Shown here: piece by piece, positions 38,380 to 38,998 of the stretch
Position numbering within the stretch: position 1 is the first letter of the stretch
Layout: each line of letters starts with the position of its first letter
Source: Bdellovibrio bacteriovorus
GTDB taxonomy: Bacteria > Bdellovibrionota > Bdellovibrionia > Bdellovibrionales > Bdellovibrionaceae
Assembly (NCBI RefSeq): GCF_002208115.1
Contig: NZ_CP020946.1
Location: 2,914,001-2,978,000, forward strand
Reading direction: 5' to 3'
DNA length: 64,000 nucleotides
Position numbers and translations under genes: made by a program
The notes under the pieces: generated by a model
The model's input: only the letters and a program-made list of their open reading frames with translations
What the model was told of the DNA's origin: nothing
Database searches by the model: none

Positions 38380-38679
38380 GGGACCAAACTGTCTCACGAC
38401 GTTTTAAACCCAGCTCACGTACCTCTTTAAATGGCGAACAGCCATACCCTTGGGACCGGCTACAGCCCCAGGATGAGATGAGCCGACATCGAGGTGCCAA
38501 ACACCGCCGTCGATATGAACTCTTGGGCGGTATCAGCCTGTTATCCCCAGAGTACCTTTTATCCGTTGAGCGATGGCCCTTCCATACAGAACCACCGGAT
38601 CACTATGTCCTGCTTTCGCATCTGCTCGACTTGTCAGTCTCGCAGTTAAGCACGCTTATGCCATTGCACTATTATCACG
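38380..38679 (-). pseudogene. Foreign-looking 23S rRNA fragment (domain V) in the rrn leader
   Basis: About 300 nt of 23S rRNA, in the same sense as the operon, cover approximately E. coli positions 2330-2620, including the peptidyl-transferase ring (CTGGGGATAACAGGCTGATA, CACCTCGATGTCGGCTCAT). It is clearly not a copy of the host 23S: the corresponding host stretch around 33800-34080 differs at many variable sites (for example CCGGCTACAGCC here against CCTGCTCCAGCC, plus strand). The variable sites look like Betaproteobacteria to me, from memory. It cannot make a functional 23S. Confidence 0.85.
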
Positions 38680-38998
38680 GTTGCAGACTGCGATCCGGAC
38701 TACGAATGGTTTTATGGGATTAGCTCCCCCTCGCGGGTTGGCGACCCTCTGTACCATCCATTGTATGACGTGTGTAGCCCTACCTATAAGGGCCATGAGG
38801 ACTTGACGTCATCCCCACCTTCCTCCGGTTTGTCACCGGCAGTCTCATTAGAGTGCCCAACTAAATGTAGCAACTAATGACAAGGGTTGCGCTCGTTGCG
38901 GGACTTAACCCAACATCTCACGACACGAGCTGACGACAGCCATGCAGCACCTGTGTTACGGCTCTCTTTCGAGCACTAAGCCATCTCTGGCGAATTCT
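38680..38998 (-). pseudogene. Foreign-looking 16S rRNA fragment joined to the 23S fragment
   Basis: About 320 nt of 16S rRNA in operon sense cover approximately E. coli positions 1000-1318 (ACGAGCGCAACCCTTGTCAT, GACGTCAAGTCCTCATGG, GTCCGGATCGCAGTCTGCAA). It differs from the host 16S in the same region, and the stem GTCATTAGTTGCTACATTTA ... TCTAATGAGAC is of the Burkholderiales type as I remember it. It abuts the 23S fragment directly at 38679/38680, so about 1.2 kb or more of a normal operon is missing between them. Confidence 0.85.

Follow-up and report, generated by a model that had tools for sequence, protein, structure and literature searches.

Ribosomal DNA is a known obstacle to genome closure from short reads, as described in the accessible part of the riboSeed report (PMC6009695), and the locus studied here resembles the failures treated there in that near-identical copies longer than the reads stand in the way of closure, with the difference that the gap would have been filled by foreign rRNA instead of being left open. 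We have analysed a stretch of 64,000 nt from the chromosome of Bdellovibrio bacteriovorus SSB218315 (record CP020946), the whole of which is referred to as the window, and observed that the leader of an rRNA operon contains rRNA of a different bacterium. Contaminant rRNA is known from public genome records, in which foreign conserved rRNA becomes merged where it is identical to that of the host; the present case is distinct, as it comprises just 619 nt in two pieces, which lie within a chromosome that is nominally complete.

A further scenario with which the locus can be compared is the horizontal transfer of parts of rRNA genes, the two being alike in that foreign 16S and 23S segments are found in an rRNA operon. 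The known cases, however, swap the matching part of a gene by homologous recombination, whereas here the pieces lie outside the genes and without flanking homology. Indeed, a foreign donor sequence is present, with 315/318 and 301/301 positions identical to one Polaromonas operon, but neither homologous flanks nor a replaced host segment are observed, the host 16S and 23S being intact and two of the joins blunt. The analysis below suggests that the insert is very probably an artefact of assembly.

Location, limits and composition of the insert

The foreign rRNA stretch occupies positions 38379-38997 of the window (619 nt, minus strand, operon sense) and is composed of a 16S piece of 318 nt and, with no spacer in between, a 23S piece of 301 nt. 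Its ends were set by alignment against leaders without the insert and against donor operons, and an earlier note on this DNA had placed them correctly to one base at each end (38380-38998). The same note had described a spacer-free 16S-then-23S arrangement in operon sense, which is confirmed, the sense being evident from Rfam and the absence of a spacer from the comparison with leaders and donor. The features of the operon are the following:

39160..39235, minus strand, tRNA-Ala(TGC), upstream of the leader and native to the locus
38998..39028, minus strand, boxA-bearing start of the rrn repeat, 31 nt, at whose downstream end the insert starts
38680..38997, minus strand, foreign 16S rRNA piece, 318 nt, Polaromonas-like (Comamonadaceae), from comparison with the donor and with insert-free leaders
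38379..38679, minus strand, foreign 23S rRNA domain V piece, 301 nt, Polaromonas-like, from the same comparison
38288..38378, minus strand, remaining native leader before the 16S, consisting of the hairpin and the rest, with the conserved GATTTTTGGGCTCT element gone
36774..38287, minus strand, host 16S rRNA gene, complete (Rfam)
36555..36631, minus strand, tRNA-Ile(GAT), in the operon between 16S and 23S
33503..36443, minus strand, host 23S rRNA gene, complete (Rfam), the sole full-length LSU match found in the assembly
33136..33252, minus strand, host 5S rRNA gene (Rfam)

The Rfam analysis evidences, on the same strand and upstream of the complete 16S, two additional partial matches, one to SSU (38636-39056, 243 bits) and one to LSU (38377-38809, 331.9 bits), which overlap each other because both models extend locally beyond the 16S-23S join. 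The 16S piece corresponds to positions 992-1310 of a Salmonella 16S record, and the two pieces are arranged as in an operon, in their natural order and orientation. The two rrn copies of an HD100-type relative (G006) align to the operon of the window at 98.8% and 99.1%, and by comparison with this relative 18 nt of leader are replaced by the insert. Two of the three insert joins, host-16S and 16S-23S, are blunt and have no shared bases. The 23S-host join falls within a stretch of 10 nt in which donor and host leader agree at 8/10 bases, an agreement that has a chance of about 4e-4 at one fixed offset and that is compatible with a software overlap join and, equally, with microhomology repair.

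The 31-nt conserved block at the start of the repeat, which we take to carry boxA, is common to both rrn leaders of the HD100-type and Tiberius-type genomes. At 7-8 nt after this block, the element GATTTTTGGGCTCT, or a form of it with one extra T, is found in 29/29 leader copies from 21 relatives, a set that leaves aside two more copies (the second ones in G013 and G004), for which there was no locus; among the genomes of the genus that were searched, two (G010 and G017) gave no leader match. The genome of the window is devoid of this leader element, and its loss in the sole rrn operon of the record would be surprising.

Donor of the two pieces

The 16S piece shares 84.8% identity with its host counterpart across 289 alignment columns, its first 41 nt being unaligned, and for the 23S piece the identity with the host gene is 88.6% across 290 nt. 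When compared with a single rrn operon of Polaromonas sp. AET17H-212, the corresponding values are 315/318 (99.1%) for the 16S piece and 301/301 (100%) for the 23S piece, and all three 16S mismatches fall in the first 36 nt. These figures exclude a local duplication of host rRNA, in agreement with the earlier note, as well as a chance resemblance, and bear out the foreign origin proposed there. Leftover Salmonella prey DNA as the source of the 16S piece is also excluded, the identity to a Salmonella 16S record being 79.3%.

A scan of 84,980 species genomes with a variable part of the 16S piece resulted in a single match, which is again Polaromonas sp. AET17H-212. The comparison with 399 genomes of the donor family, in which 208/399 matched at the strict limit and two candidates were scored per genome, gives this genome as the best 16S match among the matches listed, while the top 23S score among the matches listed is common to three genomes, AET17H-212, G360 (301/301) and G259. 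Within the genus of AET17H-212, a 16S match at this comparison's limit is present in 8/87 genomes, and another genome has an equal score. In a plasmid collection, one Variovorax replicon (CP063167) is the best record for both pieces, with 98.1% (16S) and 99.3% (23S) identity; this record is an rrn operon, in which the two pieces are about 3.1 kb apart. An internal deletion relative to the donor operon, as had been inferred, is supported by the donor operon and by the plasmid record alike.

Compared separately, both pieces are closest to Polaromonas among the matches listed, with the host's own rRNA genes far lower. The donor is thus a Polaromonas-like comamonad, and the affinity to Betaproteobacteria (Burkholderiales-like) that had been proposed from variable positions was correct, the plasmid-collection, donor-family and donor-operon comparisons all pointing to the Comamonadaceae.

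Distribution among genomes and mobile elements

The presence of the same insert in related strains, raised in the earlier note, was not borne out: no single match spans both pieces in any of 58 relatives (43 with some match and 15 with none). The 16S-23S join, allowing at most 2 mismatches, is found in 1/368 Bdellovibrionota genomes, which is that of the window itself, and in 0/367 of the others; this collection contains one genome per species, 234/368 having a completeness of 90% or more with contamination of 5% or less, and many being incomplete. The join is likewise absent from the 399 donor-family genomes and, as an exact 22-mer, from the IMG/VR viral contigs. In the phage collection, the identity to the 16S piece is at most 88% among the matches listed (20 of 21), and the tally for this piece contains none above 90%.

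We have considered three further candidates in the light of this distribution. An old conserved feature of the group is rejected, there being no spanning match in the relatives, and the 29 leader copies from 21 of them having only 7-8 nt at that place. A mobile origin is rejected as well, since the best plasmid-collection record is a Variovorax rrn operon with the pieces about 3.1 kb apart, the phage-collection matches listed for the 16S piece are distant, and viral contigs contain no exact copy of the join. Finally, a functional rRNA-derived leader RNA is not in agreement with the lack of any conservation found and with the loss of the conserved element.

The genome record and the second rrn site

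According to the accessible part of its genome report (PMC5941755), the SSB218315 genome has a length of 3,769,537 bp and was assembled from paired 75-nt NextSeq Illumina reads using SPAdes 3.10, followed by MeDuSa scaffolding and IMAGE gap closing. The HD100-type relative has two rrn operons that are identical over 5,090 nt from boxA, a repeat which a paired 75-nt sonicated library should not be able to cross, and the insert begins 31 nt inside the 5' edge of this repeat, the edge being that indicated by relatives. Within the SSB218315 assembly, one full-length LSU match and no other LSU pieces were found among the 12 of 82 candidates scored, and there are no other matches to the insert beyond host rRNA. 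In the catalogue, the genome is listed as 100% complete with 0.34% contamination.

The second rrn site of the record (L109, G000:C1:2114500-2121000), at which the HD100-type relative has its second operon, has its junction near position 2119996. The upstream flank is present, with 89% identity to the HD100-type relative, and the promoter extends to just past TTGACAAGA, where it joins the final ~10 nt of 5S and then the downstream flank, 2 nt being shared at the junction. Both rrn loci of the assembly are therefore odd, one by the leader insert and the other by the promoter-5S fusion, and the second operon is missing from the record, probably as a result of collapse in assembly. Its absence could also be a real deletion, as may be illustrated by a single-contig relative (G007) that also has one rrn operon: at its second site (L101, G007:C1:1233500-1235500) the tRNA-Ala flank leaves the rrn repeat 22 nt after the start, the operon being located elsewhere.

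Origin of the insert

We consider it very probable that the insert is an artefact, in which contaminant rRNA was placed in a misassembled rrn gap of the SSB218315 record. Low-level DNA of a Polaromonas-like comamonad would have been present in the sequencing data, possibly from a co-cultured soil bacterium or by reagent or index carry-over, and would have given rise to two contigs or fragments of about 300 nt, resembling rRNA that is conserved in all bacteria. These may then have been put, in 16S-then-23S order and in rRNA sense, into the gap at the 5' edge of the collapsed repeat, the step responsible being presumably the reference-guided scaffolding (MeDuSa) or the gap closing (IMAGE). The strain itself would have two rrn copies, as suggested by its relatives, and the true leader at the site most likely resembles that of HD100. 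Contaminant rRNA could be drawn to host rRNA because up to 73 nt of the insert are identical to the latter, about one read length. If contigs were placed by rRNA similarity, this would also account for the filling of an rRNA gap by rRNA with the order and sense of an operon, for which prey DNA captured at random offers no explanation. We prefer an artefact because of the short-read pipeline, the long two-copy repeat in the relative and the odd second rrn site. The two blunt joins, the match of both pieces to one donor operon, the lost leader element and the absence of the 16S-23S join from the other genomes and the viral contigs compared speak for it as well. Indeed, the data are too short to cross the repeat (75-nt pairs against the 5,090 nt identical in G006), the anomaly is at the repeat edge (31 nt inside), and the other repeat copy is missing or broken (one LSU and a promoter-5S fusion), although a real deletion would look alike. 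The earlier note had taken the clean fit into the leader as an argument against a chimera in assembly; pipeline, repeat and second site together make the artefact the best explanation. What counts against it is the loss of 18 nt of leader, which simple contig joining would not predict, the 8/10 agreement at the 23S-host join, which suits microhomology repair too, and, with respect to a contaminant, the lack of another LSU piece among the candidates scored and of further insert matches in the assembly together with the 0.34% contamination. Also, 31 nt is not known to be a default SPAdes k-mer size. A physical chimera formed during library preparation or amplification and then assembled is highly improbable: pieces of 318 and 301 nt joined blunt would have a plausible library-fragment size, but such a chimera must be the majority sequence at the locus, whereas a join made in scaffolding or gap closing needs no such molecule.

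That the insert is real, the predator having recently joined two comamonad rRNA fragments in operon order between boxA and 16S, appears unlikely. A slightly smaller chance is given to its most direct form, a recent capture in which comamonad DNA, perhaps from digested prey, was end-joined into a break of the leader with loss of 18 nt. The three joins are end-joining-like, two being blunt and one having the 8/10 similarity, the near-perfect donor match fits a very recent event, and SSB218315 preys on the one betaproteobacterium tested, Alcaligenes sp., according to the accessible part of PMC5221441; in that same text, however, the strain is recorded as isolated on Salmonella and not on a comamonad. 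Moreover, a capture requires that one donor contributed two separate rRNA fragments, or a single one that was internally deleted, and that these came to lie, with the order and sense of an operon, in the rRNA operon of the host itself, near the edge of the repeat. It would delete an element kept in every one of the 29 leader copies, and would do so in a record that has no other rrn operon and whose second rrn site is odd too. Capture by recombination at conserved rDNA, the route put forward in the earlier note, does not match an insert that is located in the leader, outside the rRNA genes, with 2/3 joins lacking shared bases. The most improbable of the explanations is a capture mediated by rRNA, in which a reverse transcript of precursor or broken prey rRNA, made with a jump of the template between 16S and 23S, would have been integrated. 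In its favour are the order and sense of the pieces, which are those of a transcript, and the abundance of rRNA, the most common RNA of cells; however, template jumps usually use some shared bases, whereas the 16S-23S join has none, and the objections to a genuine capture also hold here.

Implications for the use of CP020946

The record CP020946 serves as a complete B. bacteriovorus reference, being named in the accessible part of PMC11656739 and used in that of PMC7137782. The rRNA loci in it appear misassembled, there being one rrn operon versus two in the HD100-type genome, besides the foreign leader piece, and a check is advisable for any rrn operon counts, analyses of leaders or proposed gene transfers from prey that are based on this record. 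Neither the insert nor a misassembly of CP020946 is reported in the titles and abstract openings among the literature matches listed, which does not constitute proof that no such report exists. A real insert, in contrast, would provide a rare and direct record of nucleic acid that the predator had taken up from prey or a neighbour.

Other observations on the window and on Bdellovibrio rrn leaders

Elsewhere in the window, a stretch of about 1.1 kb (9796-10918) is without equivalent at the corresponding position of the HD100-type relative. The Bdellovibrio rrn leaders have a fixed layout (relatives L035-L063), in which the boxA block is followed by 7-8 nt, by GATTTT(T)TGGGCTCT and then by a hairpin, the stem of which varies on both sides between species, as for example in GAATACCGAGTAATTGGTATTC versus GAATGATGAGTAATTATCATTC. 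This shared layout is possibly part of 16S processing or antitermination. The tRNA-Ala(TGC) is located upstream of the rrn leader and not in the 16S-23S spacer, an arrangement that is also observed in the HD100-type and Tiberius-type genomes.
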